DNA of 31,872 nucleotides from a virus. Positions 3,973-31,872 of the stretch are shown piece by piece (the first letter of the stretch is position 1; every line of letters begins with the position of its first letter). The DNA lies in the IMG/VR virus record IMGVR_UViG_3300037137_001397, positions 1 to 31,872 of that record; one strand, given 5' to 3'. The position numbers and the translations under genes were made by a program. Below the pieces are notes generated by a model. It ran no database searches, was not told where the DNA came from, and saw only the letters and a list, made by a program, of their open reading frames with translations.

Positions 3973-6900
3973 TTAAACATTCACAACCTCAATTTCTGAT
4001 TCCGTTATCGACCGCAAAGACCGGCGCGGTATAACTTTTATGACCGCTGTATCATTGCCGCCGAGGTCTGCCGTTTTGTCAATCACTTCGGATTCGGAGG
4101 TCGCCGCAACACTTCGCTGACCGATAGCGACGCCGGCAGTCGTCTCGAATACCAGGTCGATGCTTTGCAATTCCGAATCCGCCAGATAATTGCCATAGCT
4201 AACGCCGGACCCGCCGACAAGTTCCGTCTCACTGTCGCCATATTCCCATATCGGATAAGTGTCATTCAAATCGAATCCGCCCTGATTGAAGCCGGTCAAT
4301 CTCTGCCCCGGCAGATTCCAGTAAAGCGTAAAACTGCTCCCGGTGTATTCAGTCCCGCCGCCGTCCGTTTCGCCCGTCGTCAATCGCAGTAGTCCCGCGC
4401 CCGCCGGTCTTTGATATAGACCTTGAATCTGATACGAGCTCGCCGTGACATCGGCTATCAGTTGTATCTCGTTTCCGTAAAAGGTGAGGGCTTTGAAATA
4501 TACGGTCTTGCCAATATCTTCCGGCGTGAAAATGTAATTAAAATTAGTATCGAGCGTTGCGAAGATTTCGCCAATACTGTGGGCTGTGGCTTCCGTTCCG
4601 AACAGCCCACGTATTACGCCGGTGATTGTCCAGACGCCCTCGGTAACAGTTTCGACCGCCGTTTTATATGCGATTATCTCTTCGCCGATTTTGCATAAGT
4701 GGCGGTTATTGAAAAAGTCATCATCATTTGCCGCACTTGCCAGGTCCGTAACCGTCCCGATATTGACCTCAATCGTATCTTCACCCATATAGACCGGGGC
4801 CGGATAAGCGGGCATAAGTTGCGTTATCGTACCCGTACTATTTGCGGAACCGCCCGTAACTTCGTCGATAGTCGCCTTGCCGAGTAATGTAAAGCCGCTA
4901 TCGGCGGAATATGACTTGAAAATATACCATCCGTTGGTGTCCGCCCCCCCGGGCGCAAAGCATAATTTCAACGCGGGATTATTCACGTCCTCAAAAAACG
5001 CTATGCTTGCGCCGATTATAACCGCTTCTTCATCCGGCGTTCTTTGTGAGGTCTGGCCGTTAAATGCAATCTCTGGGTATAATTCCGTCGTATCCTCCAT
5101 CGCCTCAATTTCGAGCGTGCGTCCGTCTTTGTGTTCGCTTATTGAGGTTATGCGCAATTTTTCATCGGTCAATAGGAATCCGTCAGTGATTGTGCCGACG
5201 ACGCCGGGATGGACGAGCATATTCTTATAACTGACCGCAAAATTATAGATGCTGAACCGGTACATCGAGTCGAATAAAATCCGATAAGCCATTTTCATGG
5301 CAAGCGTAGAATTATGAATGCCCGCCAGTTGGATTGTCTTCTTGCGGATGTGCCCGCAAATGCGCTGGTCAACTTCGTCCTTCGCCACGGCGACGGCTAT
5401 ATCATAATCCGCATCTCTGTTCGTCCAGACAATCTCGATATGATTATAGGTATCGTTATATTCCCGTTTTTTAATTCTTACCGGCGGCGGAGGACTTTCG
5501 CCCTCCTCTGAAACAATATCGTCTCGCGTCAAGTCAACGGCGGAATCCTCCTCGCGCATTATCCCTATGGCGATTTCGCCGTTTTTGTGATATATGAATC
5601 CCGCAAAATGAACGCAGATACAATCCAGCCAGTCAACCAAACTCCTCTGCTCGTTAAGAACAATCGACATCATAATATCGTTGGTTTGGCAATACGCCAA
5701 AGCGGTATCGTATGCCTCCTCGTTCATTGCCAAAGGCGTAAAACGCTCGATAAGATTCCTGATAATAACCGGCGGATATTCGTCCTTTGCGTTAATTAAG
5801 TATCCCGGCCAATTAACAGCATCCGTCGTCATCCAAGCATAGGCCGTAATAGTACCAAACATACCACTACCAAAACCATCCAGAGAAGAAAGTAACGCCA
5901 AATTCTGGTCGTATATCTCAAAAATGTTTGTAGTAACTGAGTCATACTTTTTAATTACTACAATATGTCCCCATAAATCCACATAAAGAGTTTGAGCATC
6001 AGAGCATAATATAGTTTTTACTTCTTCTAATTCGATTCGAGCATTTGAACCGGTACTCATAAGACCTATTGTGAATCCGGCTGTTGGGGGGATAAAAGTA
6101 ACTTTAATTTTATGAATTGTACCCCCATCCTTCGCTGTCCTTACATAAATATAATTATTCAAAACACAAATTGCCCCTGTTCTTATGGTATAAGAACTGG
6201 TGTGCGGAACACCGTTCGATAAAAGACCAACATCCATATCTTCCGAAATGCCACCTAATATAATTCCATTAGGAAAAACTGTGTCCAGCATAAAAACACA
6301 AAGATTTTCGCTACCACCAACATTCCAGGAAGAACCACTGCCACCAGATATTGCATATTTTATTGGGAATCCATTCCACAAAATTGTAGCAAGAAGAATG
6401 TGATAAGGTGAACGGCTACCACTGGGATTGTAAGCAGGCCCATACAGTGTTTGCATTAAATGTCCATCATCGGCAGAGTATTTATGTATGGTTTGAAAAG
6501 ATGAACCACCTATTGTTGTACCGGACGCAAGATAAACATTGCCATCGTCGTCAACATCTAAATAATACGAGGCAGTCGTATCTTCTGTGTTTTTCCAAAT
6601 CTCAAGACCAGTTTCTAAACTGAATTTGTATAGGCGAGTGTCATCAGCAAAATTCATATAAATATATTTTGAATCCTTTGTGACTTTGACGGCTCTTGGT
6701 AACTTACCTGTATTACCCCATCCACCAATCGGCTGGAAGAAGTTGTTAATAACATTGCCATCTTTGTCTATCTTTACGAGGTAAGTTCCATCTGTATATC
6801 CTTGGGCAATATAAAGATTGCCATAAACATCTTGCGTTAAGCGACCAGAACCTGAACCGGTCTGCGTGTACCGAACTACCCTCTCTGCACCAGTAAACGT

Positions 6901-8305: not shown

Positions 8306-10065
8306 CACATCATCGTTTCTTCGACTTTAGGGACATAAACATAGCCATTAAAATTATCGATATTATCGAATCGGTCACGGCATACCGCCCCCGTTAAATC
8401 GCAGCCGGGATAGATTGCGTAAGCGACCCCGGCGACAATCGCATAAGGAAACGCCCACATAACCGTTATAGTTGACGCGGTATTTGAAAGAATTTTGCGA
8501 CGCTGGCCGTTATTCGCCCCACTTGTAATATGAAGTTCGCCCAATTCGTAATACGTCGTATCTTCTTCGGGTGTGCCGTTTACGACAACCAGATTATCTT
8601 CGTGAACCAACAACTGATTATCCGCAAACCCTGCGCCGGTTTGATTTACATACCAGATATATCCTGACGTTGCGGTTAGATAAACGATATTGACGACTGT
8701 AGCCGTCGCCGAGTCGCCATAAGCCGCGTTTCTTATTTCGTCGATTTCGTCGGCGGATAAAATATCGCTGAGCACAACAACTTCGTCCAGTTTTGCCTGT
8801 AAAGCGTTGCCGCCTGAAGCCCTGCCAAGTTCAAATGCGGCATCCGTGATATAAATGTTATTAGTAGTATTACCGGCCTTCTCTGTAGAGAGTCCCGTGC
8901 TCGAATCGTAAATACGAATACGATACGACTTATCGCTATCCTGATATGTGATGCCGACGTGATACCAGATATTGATTGCCACTGAAACCGTATCGTCTTC
9001 TATTTTCTCGGCAAGTGTCCCACTCGAATACCCAAGATAGAAACCGAATCTTTTAGTTCCGGCATTATTATAAACCATTGCTACAAAACTTCTTTTGCTA
9101 CCAGACGTAGCAAATTTGCTAACTATCGCCTGGTATCCGGACGTGGATGGTAGCGATGAAAACTTTACCCAGAATGTGGTTGATATTTTTTTATTGGTAT
9201 CGCCGTTTTTCAAGGGGAATCCGGCGGACAGAGAAGCATCGGCCAAAGTCATATAATCACTTGATGCAAAAACGCCCGCGCATCCGCCCTGCTTAAAATC
9301 GGCAACATCCGCAGCCACCCCGGAATTGGTCAGCGTATTCGTGCTTTTTGAATCTGCTCCCAGCGCGGCACTTTCAAGATTGAACAGGGCTTTGCAGTTT
9401 GCATCCGCCGAAAAATCATTTATAGCGCCGATTGTATCGCCTATAAGAATGGGATTAGCGGAATCTCCCCCGTCGAAATTGGCCTTATTGATAGTGCCCC
9501 GCGTCGGGTCAATCAAAGTAGTTTTGGACCCATCTGTGGCCGTGCCAGAGTAGGCGTAATCGGCCTTTATCAGACCGCACATATCGTCAAATAGACAGTT
9601 ATTGCACGGCTCCTGATACATCTGTTCCGGAACTTGAATCACCAAACTTTCAAGAATCGACCGGCAATGCAAAACCAATTCCTGCCTGTTAAATTCAGGC
9701 GAACCATAGCCGACAAAAAGAATGATTTCCTTATCGACGGCGTAATCATCCGTCCAAAGAATCCTTTTGATTGTAACCGTGCAGCCATCGAGTAAATTCT
9801 TTTGAACCAAGTCGAATAAATCGCCGGTGATATTCCCCAAAGACACATCAACCGCCTGCGATTCAAGATTGAGATTCTGCGAAATAGGACTTCGCATAAT
9901 CGGCAAAGACTCATAGATAATTGGCGTTGCGTCCCACGTTATGTTTTTGGTATGAGAGGTATAATGATACGATATGCCGTTGGTCAAGGTGATTATGTAT
10001 AACTCACAGACCTTGACCTTCGTTAAATCTATTGCTGCGGAAAAGCTGGAATTAACATCTCTCAC
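8305..10065 (-). CDS. DUF2163/BR0599-type tail tip protein with an inserted LamG domain
   Basis: A 586-residue protein. Residues 1-205 match the DUF2163 N-terminal domain, with clustered cysteines in PCNNCLFDDMCGL (154, 157, 163). The C-terminal BR0599-like domain ends in YPGCDLTGAVCRDRFDN and NFNGYVYVP (Cys555, Cys562). This cysteine set parallels lambda gpL, which holds an iron-sulfur cluster, so this protein may too. Residues about 222-452 separate the two halves and read as a concanavalin/LamG jelly roll (ISTTFWVKFSSLP, WYHVGITY, LDEVVVLSDILSADEI). The protein is normally about 270-300 residues, so the LamG part is an insertion. It sits in the usual order between DUF2460 and NlpC/P60 genes. 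Confidence 0.85.
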   Translation of the reverse strand: MRDVNSSFSAAIDLTKVKVCELYIITLTNGISYHYTSHTKNITWDATPIIYESLPIMRSPISQNLNLESQAVDVSLGNITGDLFDLVQKNLLDGCTVTIKRILWTDDYAVDKEIILFVGYGSPEFNRQELVLHCRSILESLVIQVPEQMYQEPCNNCLFDDMCGLIKADYAYSGTATDGSKTTLIDPTRGTINKANFDGGDSANPILIGDTIGAINDFSADANCKALFNLESAALGADSKSTNTLTNSGVAADVADFKQGGCAGVFASSDYMTLADASLSAGFPLKNGDTNKKISTTFWVKFSSLPSTSGYQAIVSKFATSGSKRSFVAMVYNNAGTKRFGFYLGYSSGTLAEKIEDDTVSVAINIWYHVGITYQDSDKSYRIRIYDSSTGLSTEKAGNTTNNIYITDAAFELGRASGGNALQAKLDEVVVLSDILSADEIDEIRNAAYGDSATATVVNIVYLTATSGYIWYVNQTGAGFADNQLLVHEDNLVVVNGTPEEDTTYYELGELHITSGANNGQRRKILSNTASTITVMWAFPYAIVAGVAYAIYPGCDLTGAVCRDRFDNIDNFNGYVYVPKVEETMM

Positions 10066-14323: not shown

Positions 14324-15289
14324 TTAATTTTTATTATTGTTCAGAACCATTTTGAAAACTCTGTCATACTCTTGTGCAATTTTGTTTATGTCGTGAAACT
14401 CTTCAGCAAAACGGCGACCATTATTCGCCAGGTCAATTCGCAAAGCAAGATTATTTTTCAAAAGCATAATCTTGTCGGCTATATCTTTGGAGTTGCGCTC
14501 GATGAACAGACAGTTGAATCGGTCTTTAAGTTTTTCGCCGTGGAAGCCGACTTTTGTAGTCAAGACCGGCACGCCGCAGGCAAGGGCCTCAGTAACTACA
14601 TTCGAGCAACCTTCACCCAAGCTCGGCAGTACCAGGCAATCAATCTGCTGGTAAAATTCCTTCGGCATCAAGTCGTGGGCAATCTGGCTGTGGGCATGAA
14701 GCAATTGCTTTGTCTTTATCTCGCCCAGCAAACCGATTGTGGCCTCTACCCAGTACTTATAGCCCTTATAATGCAAGCCCATGCCCCAGATATTGCCCGC
14801 AAAACCCGCAGTGAAGACCCGATTCGGATTAGGTTTGCCCGGCTTGAATATCTCCAAGTCAACGCCATTCGGAATTAAAAAGGTATTGTCGTTGGCGTTC
14901 TTGCCTATCTCGAAAAGCTGCTCGTTGGTAGCTATGACCGCCGCGACACCTTTTAACTGCTCATCGTATCTGCCCGATTTGTTCTCTTCGTCCACAACCA
15001 TACCCCCTGACCTGCAAACCACTTTCTTTTTATCTTTCACCAACCGCAAACTGCATACGTTTTGCAGCATCGTTAAATCAAAGTAATCAACCAAGCCATC
15101 TGCAACCGGCACGGCTGATATTTTGGTCGTGTTCTTTTCGCCGCAACTTTTGCACGGATGAATCAAATCTATTGGCCGCTGTCCCATAATCCTCACAAAG
15201 CGAAAGTCCTTGAGACGGTCGATAATCTGATGCAGGGTTAAACCCCATGACCAGCTCAAAGCGTTCTCAACTGATAAAATCGTATTCAT
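14324..15289 (-). CDS. GT-B fold glycosyltransferase (family 4-like)
   Basis: A 321-residue protein. The C-terminal half has the nucleotide-sugar binding signature of GT4 enzymes: FAGNIWGMG after the linker at about 163-171, KGYKYWVEA, and PSLGEGCSNVVTEALACGVP, in which Glu226 and Glu234 form the EX7E motif. IPNGVDLEIFKP at 139-150 marks the linker typical of this family. The N-terminal half is less conserved and carries a CKSCGE pair of cysteines. The gene overlaps the methyltransferase stop (ATGA) and lies between tail completion and tail tube genes. It probably glycosylates a virion protein or a host surface sugar; the acceptor is unknown. Confidence 0.85.
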   Translation of the reverse strand: MNTILSVENALSWSWGLTLHQIIDRLKDFRFVRIMGQRPIDLIHPCKSCGEKNTTKISAVPVADGLVDYFDLTMLQNVCSLRLVKDKKKVVCRSGGMVVDEENKSGRYDEQLKGVAAVIATNEQLFEIGKNANDNTFLIPNGVDLEIFKPGKPNPNRVFTAGFAGNIWGMGLHYKGYKYWVEATIGLLGEIKTKQLLHAHSQIAHDLMPKEFYQQIDCLVLPSLGEGCSNVVTEALACGVPVLTTKVGFHGEKLKDRFNCLFIERNSKDIADKIMLLKNNLALRIDLANNGRRFAEEFHDINKIAQEYDRVFKMVLNNNKN

Positions 15290-15726
15290 TTTACTGCCTT
15301 CAAAACAACGCTGACCGTGGAGGTTTTCTCGAAATTAGTATTTTCCAATTTCCACGGTTTCGGCTTGTAAATGCTGTATCTTTTATAAGAAACATCAAAG
15401 TACTGAAAAGTAAATTCGTTTGGACAGGTGTAATGCGTTGGGTCTTGGCAGGCACCAGCGCTCAGGCAATGCGGCGATACGATAGCGAGAGTTCCATCAG
15501 GAATAGAAATTCGCCACAATTCATTCATAAGACAAATTCTGAATTTTGGTTCTATGTGTTCCCAAACATGATTCATTATTATTGACTCAAAAGTGTTGTC
15601 GGAAAAAGGAAATGGGAATCTCTGTATATCGTGAACAACATCGACACCTTTTAATTCGCGTATGTCCATGTTGACATATCCATCCATCACCCTTTCACCG
15701 CAACCGATATTTAATTTTTGAGACAT
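15286..15726 (-). CDS. SAM-dependent methyltransferase, class I
   Basis: A 146-residue protein. The SAM-binding motif I is KLNIGCGER at residues 4-12, followed by the acidic residue in GYVNMDI and by FPFPFSDNTFESIIMNHVWEHI, the standard motif region of Methyltransf_11 enzymes. It is short for the family, so the substrate-binding part is minimal. The ATG at 15726 is chosen because AAAGAG precedes it and the SAM motif starts right after; an alternative upstream start adds 11 residues. Being wedged between two glycosyltransferases, it most likely methylates a sugar or glycosylated product. Confidence 0.8.
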   Translation of the reverse strand: MSQKLNIGCGERVMDGYVNMDIRELKGVDVVHDIQRFPFPFSDNTFESIIMNHVWEHIEPKFRICLMNELWRISIPDGTLAIVSPHCLSAGACQDPTHYTCPNEFTFQYFDVSYKRYSIYKPKPWKLENTNFEKTSTVSVVLKAVK

Positions 15727-16646
15727 AATCTCTTTCTTAATTCGGCGCAATTGCCCCAAAATGTTAGATTGTCAGTAATCACCGACATGAAGGATTTCTG
15801 GTTACTGATGCACCCTTCGTGTCTTATATCAACATTTGGAACAGGGCTGGTGTATGTATTTAGTTTGGCCCATTTAATTATTCTGTCTCTTCCGGGCTCG
15901 ATATATTCTATGGCTTTGTAGCCGTGCTTTTTTAACAGTTCGAGTTTTTCCCGGAAAACGTTCCTGAAATCACAAGCATATCCCGAAAATTGACTCAGTA
16001 TTTTATCCGAAGAACCAATACTGTATCCGTTAGAAGTGCATCTGAAATTATTGGTGTTGCAATTGAATTGTTTGTCAGCAAAACAGTACGATTGAAGGCT
16101 CGTAAAATGGCTGCTGTGATACAATACGTCATGTTCCGCAAGAAACACGTATGTTTTCGCATCAAAAAATTCTAATCCGGCCAAAATCTGTTCCATGATG
16201 CTTTGTATATTTCTTGGCTTATCGCCAACGCAAATGTTGTTCCTGACATTGACCGGTCTCTGGCTGACTACTGCTATTGGAATGCCGCCCGAAGCATTCA
16301 CTAAATTACTCCATGCGGTCACTCCGAGAACAGTCCCATCCAGCGTGTTGTCGGTGTAATATAAAATCCCGTGATTGGGCCTACTTAGCTGTCTTAGGCT
16401 TGTTAATGTAAAAACGATTTTGTTATCATGTATTTTTTCGATATACTTTAAAATTGCCACATGAGGCACGACCACAATATCCGCCGCACCAACTCGTTCC
16501 AACAGTTCGCCAAGCGTCGTGTTTTCTTTGACCAGCGGGTCGTGTTCAAAATCGGTCAGTATGTGGGAAAGCCGACGCGAGCGATTATAAAACGCCCACT
16601 CTTTAACGTCGCATACCCAGCAGATTTTAGGTTTACTTGTCGCCAT
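15711..16646 (-). CDS. Probable glycosyltransferase with GT-B-like start and GT-A-like core
   Basis: A 311-residue protein. The N-terminus (ICWVCDVKEWAFYNRSRRL, residues 8-27) resembles the opening of phage GT-B type glycosyltransferases. From about residue 121 the sequence changes to GT-A character: GIPIAVVSQRPVN, then YVFLAEHDVLYHSSHF with an HDV (DxD-like) metal site. The combination suggests a fusion of a GT-B start with a GT-A catalytic domain. The gene is overlapped at both ends by neighbours and begins the three-gene sugar cassette. Donor and acceptor are unknown. Confidence 0.7.
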   Translation of the reverse strand: MATSKPKICWVCDVKEWAFYNRSRRLSHILTDFEHDPLVKENTTLGELLERVGAADIVVVPHVAILKYIEKIHDNKIVFTLTSLRQLSRPNHGILYYTDNTLDGTVLGVTAWSNLVNASGGIPIAVVSQRPVNVRNNICVGDKPRNIQSIMEQILAGLEFFDAKTYVFLAEHDVLYHSSHFTSLQSYCFADKQFNCNTNNFRCTSNGYSIGSSDKILSQFSGYACDFRNVFREKLELLKKHGYKAIEYIEPGRDRIIKWAKLNTYTSPVPNVDIRHEGCISNQKSFMSVITDNLTFWGNCAELRKRLCLKN

Positions 16647-29058: not shown

Positions 29059-30504
29059 TTACGCAAAGGCGTAATCCCCTGCAACTATCATTTCCGGTTC
29101 AACGTATTCGGCAAGCATCTTATATGCGCCCGAGGTCCAGTCCACCTGGTCGTCATGTGCGTCCTCGTGACCCGTAAACTCGACAAGTTCTTCGATATAC
29201 TCATCGGCACCCTTGCCGCGGATTATAAAGAATTTTCCTTGCTCTGCCCGACCTATCCACGGCAACGCACGGACAAGTTTCTCACTGTCCACGCCGTAAC
29301 CGCGAATATCAATCTCCCTTAACATCGGGTCCGCAATAAGGTCATCGACAAAACCCTTTTGTGTTGCAACACTTTCAATACCTACCGAAACGCACTCCTG
29401 CCGAGCAATTAAAGTAATCATTCGTTTACTTGTGGGCCATTCCTGCTGCTCGTGCACAAGCTTGCGAACGTAGATATTGCCGTCTATGTCAATTGCCATT
29501 TGGCCGCTTGCTGTATAATCCGCGGTTGTTTTCTTTGTGACCGCCAAATCCCAATACCTTACCCATTGTAAATTATCCGGTGCTGCCTCAATAACCTTCA
29601 ACCATTCACGTTTGATTCTTGCGCCTGTGGGCGATTCTGGCCGCTGTTGATATAAGGCGTTCCAGTCATAGGAGCCGCCCACCTTAATCTTATTCAAGGC
29701 ATCGGCATTGTATTTGTTCGGCCATAACGCCTCGCCTTCGCTGCGGGGGTCTTTCGGGTGCGTAAACTCCGTATTTTCGTAAACGGCTGGCAAAGACACA
29801 ATCTTCCATTTATCGCCGTCTGGATTATTCTGTGCCTCTTTGATTAGCCAGCCGGCAAGGTCATCTATGTGCCAGCGGGTCTGCAATAACAGAATCCGCC
29901 CGCCCTTTTCAAGCCGGGTCCGCAACGTAGAACGATACCATGCCTTAATCCCGTCTCGGACGGTTTTACTTTCCGCCTCTTTGCGGTTCTTGTGGGGGTC
30001 GTCGATGATAGCATAGTCCGCGCCGGTCCCTGTTATGCCCCCCCCTACGCCCGTGGCTCGATACTTGCCGCGTTTGCCGACGATTGTAAACCCTTTGGCC
30101 TGCTTAATGGCCGTATCGTTGCATTTGTAGCCGACGTGCTTCAGGGGGGAGTAGGGGAATAGCTCGTGATATGACTCTGAAAGCATTATGCCTTGAACGT
30201 CCCGGCTCATATCGCCTGATAAGTCCATGCCATAAGTGGTGAAGATTATCTGAGCATCGGGATTGTGACCGTAAATAAAGCCGGGCAATCGCCTTGCACA
30301 TATCTCCGATTTACTATGACGTGGGGGCATAAACAGCATAAGATTATATGGCTTCGGCGACAAAACCCACGCCTCTACCTCTTCGCAAACAAGTCGATGA
30401 TGCCAATTTGTCTCAAACTTCGCATAAGTGTATTGGCAGAAATTGAGTAAGTGCCGACGGGCCTCTCGTCGTTGAATCTCCTCGCGTATCTGAATTTTTT
30501 CAAT
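29059..30504 (-). CDS. terL: Terminase large subunit (unusual start)
   Basis: The frame gives 481 residues if read from ATT at 30504, which overlaps the TerS stop as ATTGA. The ATPase has Walker A (FMPPRHSKSE, residues 58-67), Walker B (YAIIDDPHKN, Asp168/169) and the LLLQTRWHIDDLAG motif. The RNase H-like nuclease domain has RYWDLA (Asp318) and HDDQVDWTS near 450-454. No ATG, GTG or TTG lies between the upstream stop (30538-30540) and TTG at 30363; that TTG would start only 11 residues before Walker A and lose the conserved-looking FETNWHHRLVCEEVEAW. The true start is therefore a non-standard codon or depends on frameshifting. TerL pumps DNA into the head and cuts it. Confidence 0.85.
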   Translation of the reverse strand: MEKIQIREEIQRREARRHLLNFCQYTYAKFETNWHHRLVCEEVEAWVLSPKPYNLMLFMPPRHSKSEICARRLPGFIYGHNPDAQIIFTTYGMDLSGDMSRDVQGIMLSESYHELFPYSPLKHVGYKCNDTAIKQAKGFTIVGKRGKYRATGVGGGITGTGADYAIIDDPHKNRKEAESKTVRDGIKAWYRSTLRTRLEKGGRILLLQTRWHIDDLAGWLIKEAQNNPDGDKWKIVSLPAVYENTEFTHPKDPRSEGEALWPNKYNADALNKIKVGGSYDWNALYQQRPESPTGARIKREWLKVIEAAPDNLQWVRYWDLAVTKKTTADYTASGQMAIDIDGNIYVRKLVHEQQEWPTSKRMITLIARQECVSVGIESVATQKGFVDDLIADPMLREIDIRGYGVDSEKLVRALPWIGRAEQGKFFIIRGKGADEYIEELVEFTGHEDAHDDQVDWTSGAYKMLAEYVEPEMIVAGDYAFA

Positions 30505-31245: not shown

Positions 31246-31317
31246 AGCCCTATGGTCGGGGTTGAACCGCCAACTCGGAACTGGACGCTCCGTGTGATAC
31301 CGTTTCACCAATAGGGC
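31246..31317 (-). tRNA. Glycine-type tRNA-like sequence overlapping the end of the mom-like gene
   Basis: Read from 31317 leftward, it folds as a cloverleaf: a 7-base acceptor stem (GCCCTAT with ATAGGGC), T8 and G9, a D-arm of GTGA/TCAC around AACGGTA (with G18-G19), an anticodon stem CGGAG/TTCCG, loop CGTCCAG, a four-base variable loop, and a T-arm (GGCGG with CCG-CC) that needs one bulged A at 31256 around TTCAACC. The D-arm size is that of bacterial tRNA-Gly(UCC), and G1:C72, C2:G71, C35, C36 and U73 agree with glycine identity. Anticodon UCC is preceded by G33 where U33 is nearly universal, and position 38 is G. No CCA is encoded. It may not work in translation. Confidence 0.65.
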
Positions 31318-31872
31318 GGATAATCTTTTGGCCTTTATACATCCTTGCACCCATTTCGTCAATTTTACTGAAAGGCAAAACAGGCACGGTTAAATTTGCT
31401 TTTTCTTTGGGGTCGAGAAAATATATATATCGAAGTTGAAAACCCTCTTTTGGCTTCCAGCCTGCGTTTTTATATATCTTCATTGACGACGCACCTGTTT
31501 CAAGTATATTGTTTGCCTTAGTATGCGTTGTTCTGGATATGATGGATTTCGCTTGCCGCTGCTGCTGCTGCTTGCAACCATATCCCGTGAGCGACGCTCT
31601 CGAAAACACCTGCTTAGCCCGCTCCCGCTCCCGCTCCCCGCCTATGCCGGGCCGGATGCTTGTATCGCAAAAAATTTCTCCCGTTGGGGCTTCCCATATT
31701 TGGTTATTTTTTTTAATGCCCGTCAGCACAAACCCACTTGCCCGATATATCGTCCCGTCCCCACACTGGCAACCGTCAGCAAAACTAACAACCCATTTCA
31801 ACTGGTGGTAATTCTTTTTGAGCCATTTGAACGAATACGCCAACGCCCTGCTTTCACCGTTTCTTGGTAGCC
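31250..31872 (-). CDS. Mom-family adenine hypermodification protein (5' end outside window)
   Basis: The frame is open to the window edge and gives 206 residues; the true start lies further right. Features I recognise from Mom-like proteins (GNAT fold) occur in order: LPRNGESRAL, WVVSFADGCQCGDGTIYRAS and FVLTG, and later GFQLRYIYFLDP, NLTVPVLPFSKIDEMGARMYKG. In phage Mu, Mom turns adenine into N6-(carbamoylmethyl)adenine, making DNA resistant to restriction. The last 23 codons (RPIGETVSHGASSSELAVQPRP) coincide with the tRNA-like sequence, so this C-terminal tail may be a by-product of that RNA and not part of the fold. No internal membrane or signal sequence is seen. Confidence 0.85.
   Translation of the reverse strand, partial: LPRNGESRALAYSFKWLKKNYHQLKWVVSFADGCQCGDGTIYRASGFVLTGIKKNNQIWEAPTGEIFCDTSIRPGIGGERERERAKQVFSRASLTGYGCKQQQQRQAKSIISRTTHTKANNILETGASSMKIYKNAGWKPKEGFQLRYIYFLDPKEKANLTVPVLPFSKIDEMGARMYKGQKIIRPIGETVSHGASSSELAVQPRP

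Follow-up and report, generated by a model that had tools for sequence, protein, structure and literature searches.

The window analysed here, a stretch of 31,872 nucleotides from the IMG/VR virus record IMGVR_UViG_3300037137_001397, ends in a mom-like gene whose reading frame runs through a tRNA-Gly-like RNA encoded on the same strand. The locus raises the question of what this RNA does for Mom: whether it donates the glycine for the modification of DNA, acts on the mom transcript, binds Mom without donating, decodes glycine codons or has no function at all. To our knowledge, the donor of the Mom modification has been an open question for decades.

The mom frame and the overlapping RNA

The features of the locus are listed in Table 1. 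The assignment of the gene to the mom family, made in the preliminary description, was borne out by profile matches to Pfam PF25680 Mom (E 3e-24, 86.3 bits at a cut-off of 27.1) and to phrog_1384 (E 3e-25). The sequence and ARAGORN also agreed with that description in that the frame crosses a same-strand cloverleaf (31246-31317), with its stop codon (31250-31252) inside the 3' strand of the acceptor stem (31247-31253), and the cloverleaf carries every feature ascribed to it, i.e. G1:C72, C2:G71, U73, the anticodon UCC, G33, G38 and a bulged T-stem. ARAGORN called it tRNA-Gly(TCC), the single tRNA in the 31.9 kb window. The mom gene precedes a terminase large subunit-like ORF, and mom also lies ahead of terminase in Psychrobacter phage Y8A. 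Among the tail genes (14324-16646, minus strand), the window additionally contains one glycosyltransferase-like ORF, one methyltransferase-like ORF and one more hypothetical ORF, as judged from their translations only.

Table 1. Features of the mom locus of the window
Feature	Position	Strand	Details and basis
mom-like gene	31250..31870	-	206 codons; 5' end lost at contig edge; stop TAG 31252-31250
Ser codon	31850..31852	-	aligned with the residue mutated (S124A) in the inactive Mu Mom structure 8BV8; alignment
tRNA-Gly-like RNA element, type A (D-arm present)	31246..31317	-	ARAGORN; model R1
Element ends	31317 (G1), 31247 (C72), 31246 (U73)		CCA not encoded
Acceptor stem, 5' strand	31311..31317	-	GCCCTAT; pairs with 31247-31253 (ATAGGGC); sequence, fold
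D-arm	31294..31308	-	GTGA AACGGTA TCAC; sequence, model, fold
Anticodon arm	31276..31292	-	6-bp stem and 5-nt loop G33 U34 C35 C36 A37
Anticodon bases	31284 (C35), 31283 (C36)	-	
T-arm	31254..31271	-	GGCGG TTCAACC CCG-A-CC; bulged A = 31256
Terminase large subunit-like ORF	29059..30363	-	downstream of mom; reading of translation

Scored with the Rfam tRNA model, the element reached 23.8 bits and remained below the gathering score of 29; in scans with an E-value setting, it was missed within 973 bases and recovered within 106 bases. Given this score, it is regarded as a relative of tRNAs rather than a standard tRNA. Covariance model R1, trained on an alignment of related elements (A5, see below) that does not include the window, returned 60.9 bits (E 6.5e-14) for the element and no second match elsewhere in the window. 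Since R1 was built on other loci, the element is not a product of chance. Phages often integrate into tRNA genes, and the sub-threshold Rfam score of the element by itself would be compatible with a fortuitous cloverleaf or with a relic of a host tRNA gene left at an attachment site. The probability of either is practically negligible, because the entire covarying element is found at mom across hundreds of loci; the attachment-site relic was rejected on this ground.

Recurrence, covariation and layout of the element

In the four nearest viral relatives (L001-L004), the 3' end of each mom gene forms the same RNA, with a 7-bp acceptor stem, a CC-bearing loop, the T-arm GGCGG-7-CCGACC and a terminal TCCA. 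ARAGORN called no tRNA at these four loci although the elements are present, so that it does not provide a fair test for the absence of the Mom-linked RNA; applied with relaxed settings to Mom loci without the element, it yielded only noise. Searches by protein identified the element at 80 of the 80 best viral loci for window-like Moms and at 80 of the 80 best for Moms of the HWHYS/PYPK type. As the protein queries included element-encoded tails, which may enrich element-bearing loci in these sets, the fairest figure is that for bacterial genomes: none of the 45 hits was discarded, and 41, from many phyla, carried the element (exceptions: L346, L348, L349 and L350). Directly after mom in L346 (3224-3285, a Tenericutes MAG) lies another tRNA-like sequence that ends in ACACCA, has A73 and apparently lacks an anticodon arm; its free folding was no better than that of shuffled sequences.

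The linkage was also approached without the use of Mom, by scanning all IMG/VR viral contigs for the motif GGCGG-N7-CCGACC-N5-GCTCCA (17 fixed bases). At least 120 stretches matched. In 118 of the 120 matches listed, a strand complementary to the acceptor 3' strand lay 32-43 nt upstream of the motif, and in 115 of the 120 the element lay at or close to a Mom ORF of the same orientation. In three more (L046, L067 and L131), the element lies at the edge of the locus with C-terminal Mom codons visible, which raises the number at mom to 118. These are the same 118 matches that have the acceptor strand, and the remaining two (L100 and L159) have neither. Perfect 7-bp stems were formed in 113 of 119 cases, compared with a mean of 11.2 (maximum 19) when acceptor strands were swapped between loci. 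The L100 match (approximately 9843-9871, minus strand), flanked by a ParB-like and a terminase gene, occupies the position of mom in phage Y8A and is perhaps a decayed element that remained after the loss of mom.

Two types of element were distinguished: a cloverleaf (alignment A5, 40 sequences) and a D-armless form with a long central hairpin (type B; alignment A6, 34 sequences). Cells with changes on both sides of a pair numbered 228 (61 after shuffling) in one alignment and 132 (42 after shuffling) in the other. In an alignment of 102 elements from the protein-identified Mom loci, 97.2% of the cells were paired and 544 carried double changes, compared with 135 ± 11 after shuffling; in the T-stem, all five pairs around the bulged A covary, and none is broken. 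Because the model used to collect these 102 elements had been trained on sequences chosen by the motif, the T-arm motif and the 3' GC-U-CCA are invariant partly as a result of selection; the 5' partner strands, the stems and loop bases 33-34 were not selected for. The covariation and recurrence proposed as a check in the preliminary description were therefore clearly present in mom homologues (544 double-change cells versus 135; 41 of 45 genome loci). When the RNAs of the window, L001 and Y8A were folded without constraints, the acceptor stem and the central hairpin formed in all three and the D-arm in two (window, L001); the bulged T-stem was recovered for L001 and Y8A, and the T-arm of the window adopted a shifted alternative. 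The Mom-linked RNA is a large family that apparently has no name.

The element was placed relative to mom in 106 cases, 83 at the 3' end and 23 at the 5' start, the start codon in the latter usually lying a few bases ahead of it. The mom frame is open through the element in 71 of the 3' and 22 of the 5' cases (93/106), and the 3' type mainly uses two phases relative to the element (43 and 34 cases, with 6 in the third), so that one RNA fold specifies different peptides. Other loci carry it on the opposite strand immediately beyond mom (L237, L240 and L241), about 350 nt downstream (L338) or in two copies (L324 and L286). The varied frames, the placement at either end, the duplications and the opposite-strand copies imply that selection acts on the RNA and not on a peptide; conservation of a peptide was rejected as the cause, since the element is translated in at least two phases. 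The earlier idea of a tRNA-dependent system packed in one gene thus describes the commonest layout, but not the 5', separate downstream, opposite-strand and tandem arrangements. At 5'-type loci such as L157, L107 and L142, the first ~25 Mom residues (CGDSSxxExPLFQ..GGSIPTSPLQ) are the translated RNA element, and protein profiles may have taken in this peptide as protein sequence.

These layouts bear on a role of the RNA as a cis-acting regulator or processing signal of the mom transcript, which would recruit RNase P or GlyRS and tune expression without donating glycine. Such a role would suit an element that sits at or inside one end of mom with the frame mostly open through it, as its excision would destroy the mRNA. 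We nevertheless consider it unlikely: the opposite-strand, distant and tandem copies suit a product acting in trans, and a processing signal would need neither C35 and C36 nor U73.

Among cultured phages, Psychrobacter phage Y8A carries two unannotated D-armless copies in tandem just after mom (L005:4410-4477 and 4482-4550), which have U33 and differ by a compensatory helix (CTG/CAG versus CAG/CTG); the paper describing this phage reports no tRNA genes (PMC10434257). Salinibacter phage B2_17 contains a member of the family that is annotated as tRNA-Gly (85.3 bits), and Arthrobacter phage Wyborn a divergent copy in whose T-stem, in our own reading, a U can be placed as a bulge at the corresponding position. 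Microbacterium phage MenE is an independent, convergent pairing of mom with a tRNA-Gly: a canonical tRNA-Gly(CCC) that has an ordinary T-stem and U33, the sole annotated tRNA in 38.5 kb, adjoins mom in antisense orientation (L377:1854-1928) and is shared by nine further Microbacterium records. The element is absent from the mom locus of phage Mu and from most other cultured-phage Mom loci examined, Mu through ICP1, and no match was obtained when E. coli genomes were searched at the DNA level with a phage mom. In a tree of 140 Moms (FastTree, many weak forks), every major part includes element-bearing Moms, with types A and B interspersed, and element-less Moms appear at several places.

Glycine identity and decoding features

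Across the 102 elements, G1:C72 and C2:G71 are each present in 102, G3:C70 in 98, U73 in 101 and C35 in 102; C36 was found in 97, with five more shifted in the alignment. These bases match the bacterial glycine identity set, which comprises U73, G1-C72, C2-G71, G3-C70, C35 and C36 (PMC9976931, Table 1), except that the window has C3:G70, one of three such cases. The invariance of the full set strongly implies that the element would be charged by GlyRS, an inference from sequence for which there are no aminoacylation data. The single element with A73, from a member of the Saccharibacteria (L352), might follow the GlyRS type of its host.

Features required for decoding were not conserved in the same way. 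Base 33, which is U in all decoding tRNAs, is U in 38, G in 32, A in 20 and C in 11 of the elements, and base 34 is U in 53, A in 35, C in 12 and G in 2. The commonest central hairpin has 6 bp and a 5-nt loop (NNCCA or NNCCC); the window element itself fails the decoding criteria, with G33 instead of U33 and a loop of five rather than seven nucleotides. The D-arm is missing from many elements. The bulged A in the T-stem is present in 102/102, and none of these elements has an uninterrupted 5-bp T-stem. The T-stem is a contact site of EF-Tu, and the tRNA-Gly of staphylococcal wall synthesis evades EF-Tu through changes at 49-65 and 51-63 (PMC9976931). From this observed anatomy, without binding data, we infer that the element escapes EF-Tu and translation.

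Phages often carry tRNAs, and an ordinary tRNA-Gly boosting the translation of glycine codons might be suspected from the ARAGORN calls of some copies as tRNA-Gly(TCC) and from the canonical Microbacterium copy. This explanation is very improbable in view of the unkept U33, A34 in a third of the elements, the 5-nt loops, the bulged T-stem, the frequent lack of a D-arm and the location at mom of 118/118 elements with an acceptor strand among the matches listed. A decoding tRNA was rejected because U33, the 7-nt loop and the intact T-stem are lost and the Rfam tRNA score does not reach the threshold (23.8 <29).

Alternatively, the RNA could bind Mom without donating, as a cofactor, guide, inhibitor or substrate modified by Mom. 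The exclusive linkage of the element with Mom would fit such a partner, and there is a precedent in the TacT GNATs, which recognise Gly-tRNA via U73 and G71 (PMC9976931). This possibility is rated as quite unlikely, because it leaves unexplained the retention of the complete glycine charging set amid otherwise free sequence, a pattern for which glycine donation accounts directly.

Proposed glycine transfer and comparison with known systems

The Mom protein of L001 (68% identical to that of the window) was modelled with a pLDDT of 77.8, exceeding 90 across most of the core and falling below 50 in the RNA-encoded tail. The model has a GNAT fold and best matches Mu Mom 8BV8 (Z 21.9, 201 residues), an inactive S124A mutant. 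With S124 assigned by us to the ESR motif, using a numbering offset of 10, the aligned active-site residue is Ser in 218 of 230 Moms and Thr in 11. In window Mom, the conserved Ser, SFAD and Tyr can all be recognised, the contig ending before the N-terminal His is reached. As Ser, SFAD and Tyr are kept alike in element-bearing and element-less Moms, both should act alike. Among the matches listed, the fold search returned no relative that uses aminoacyl-tRNA, the nearest being CoA-type GNATs; on the basis of the model, which does not on its own demonstrate a tRNA site, this proximity may be taken neither to support nor to exclude tRNA use.

The formula of the known Mom product, which we take to be N6-(carbamoylmethyl)adenine, is that of adenine with one glycyl residue (C2H3NO) added. 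The product is isomeric with N6-glycyl-adenine, which a glycyl-tRNA-dependent GNAT would be expected to form; from this formula, glycine transfer by Mom is inferred. The product chemistry and the exclusive linkage to Mom agree in pointing to a donation of glycine to DNA, again by inference. The element is thus quite probably a dedicated, non-decoding tRNA-Gly and the glycine donor for Mom, with charging and donation inferred in the absence of biochemistry. It would be transcribed with mom and presumably excised as a tRNA, with RNase P cleaving at G1 and the CCA being encoded or added. Host glycyl-tRNA synthetase would then charge it with glycine, and the lack of U33, the short anticodon loop and the bulged A where EF-Tu grips would keep the charged RNA from translation, guaranteeing a donor pool unconsumed by ribosomes. 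Judging from the chemistry, Mom would move the glycine onto adenine N6 in DNA, and a Smiles-type rearrangement with a five-membered spiro intermediate may then convert the N6-glycyl-adenine into N6-(carbamoylmethyl)adenine. Moms without the element, such as that of Mu, would draw on host glycyl-tRNA.

The proposal of an RNA dedicated to Mom holds insofar as a conserved, glycine-specific, decoding-defective RNA is present at many mom genes, but not for the many Moms, including Mu's, that lack it, which indicates that the Mom reaction does not strictly require a dedicated RNA. More generally, Mom is probably an aminoacyl-tRNA-dependent DNA base modifier for which many phages carry the donor RNA, often within the mom frame, and for which others rely on host glycyl-tRNA. 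The finding points to glycyl-tRNA as the Mom donor and is directly testable; if true, it would answer the donor question for the Mu modification and link the chemistry of protein synthesis with the modification of DNA, a connection that we know from no other system. No paper tying Mom to tRNA was found in the open-access PMC literature, an earlier subscription or preprint report not being excluded; with this coverage, novelty means not found rather than proved absent. As far as could be found, the data suggest an undescribed kind of DNA modification, in which Mom takes glycine from tRNA. The RNA family has mostly been overlooked by standard tRNA annotation (ARAGORN on L001-L004; the Y8A paper), offers D-armless, GlyRS-type minimal tRNAs and includes cases in which mom nucleotides encode protein and tRNA simultaneously.

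Among known systems, CmoX/CmoY likewise attach glycine to a phage DNA base, but do so by means of an amide ligase that acts on 5-carboxymethylcytosine and uses ATP and free glycine, without a tRNA donor (PMC12783734). TacT-type toxins share the GNAT fold and act on glycyl-tRNA, reading U73 and G71, whereas they acetylate the charged glycine and have neither a DNA substrate nor a cognate RNA gene (PMC9976931). Bacterial tRNA-Gly and the element have in common the acceptor identity set, C35 and C36, the CCA (encoded in most elements) and, for type A, the cloverleaf; the element differs in the lack of the U33 rule, the short anticodon loop, the T-stem bulge, the D-armless type B and the location within a protein gene. 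Mu Mom (8BV8) belongs to the same family and shares the fold and the conserved Ser, SFAD and Tyr, but its gene has no RNA element and is expressed with Com. FemXAB are GNAT-related transferases. The staphylococcal non-proteinogenic tRNA-Gly used by FemXAB for pentaglycine is charged with glycine, as inferred for the element, and withheld from translation through T-stem alterations that reduce EF-Tu binding (PMC9976931), these being pair changes rather than the bulge that the element has at the EF-Tu site (without binding data). It is a host chromosomal RNA with a full cloverleaf that serves wall synthesis, whereas the element is encoded by phages and linked to an enzyme that modifies DNA.
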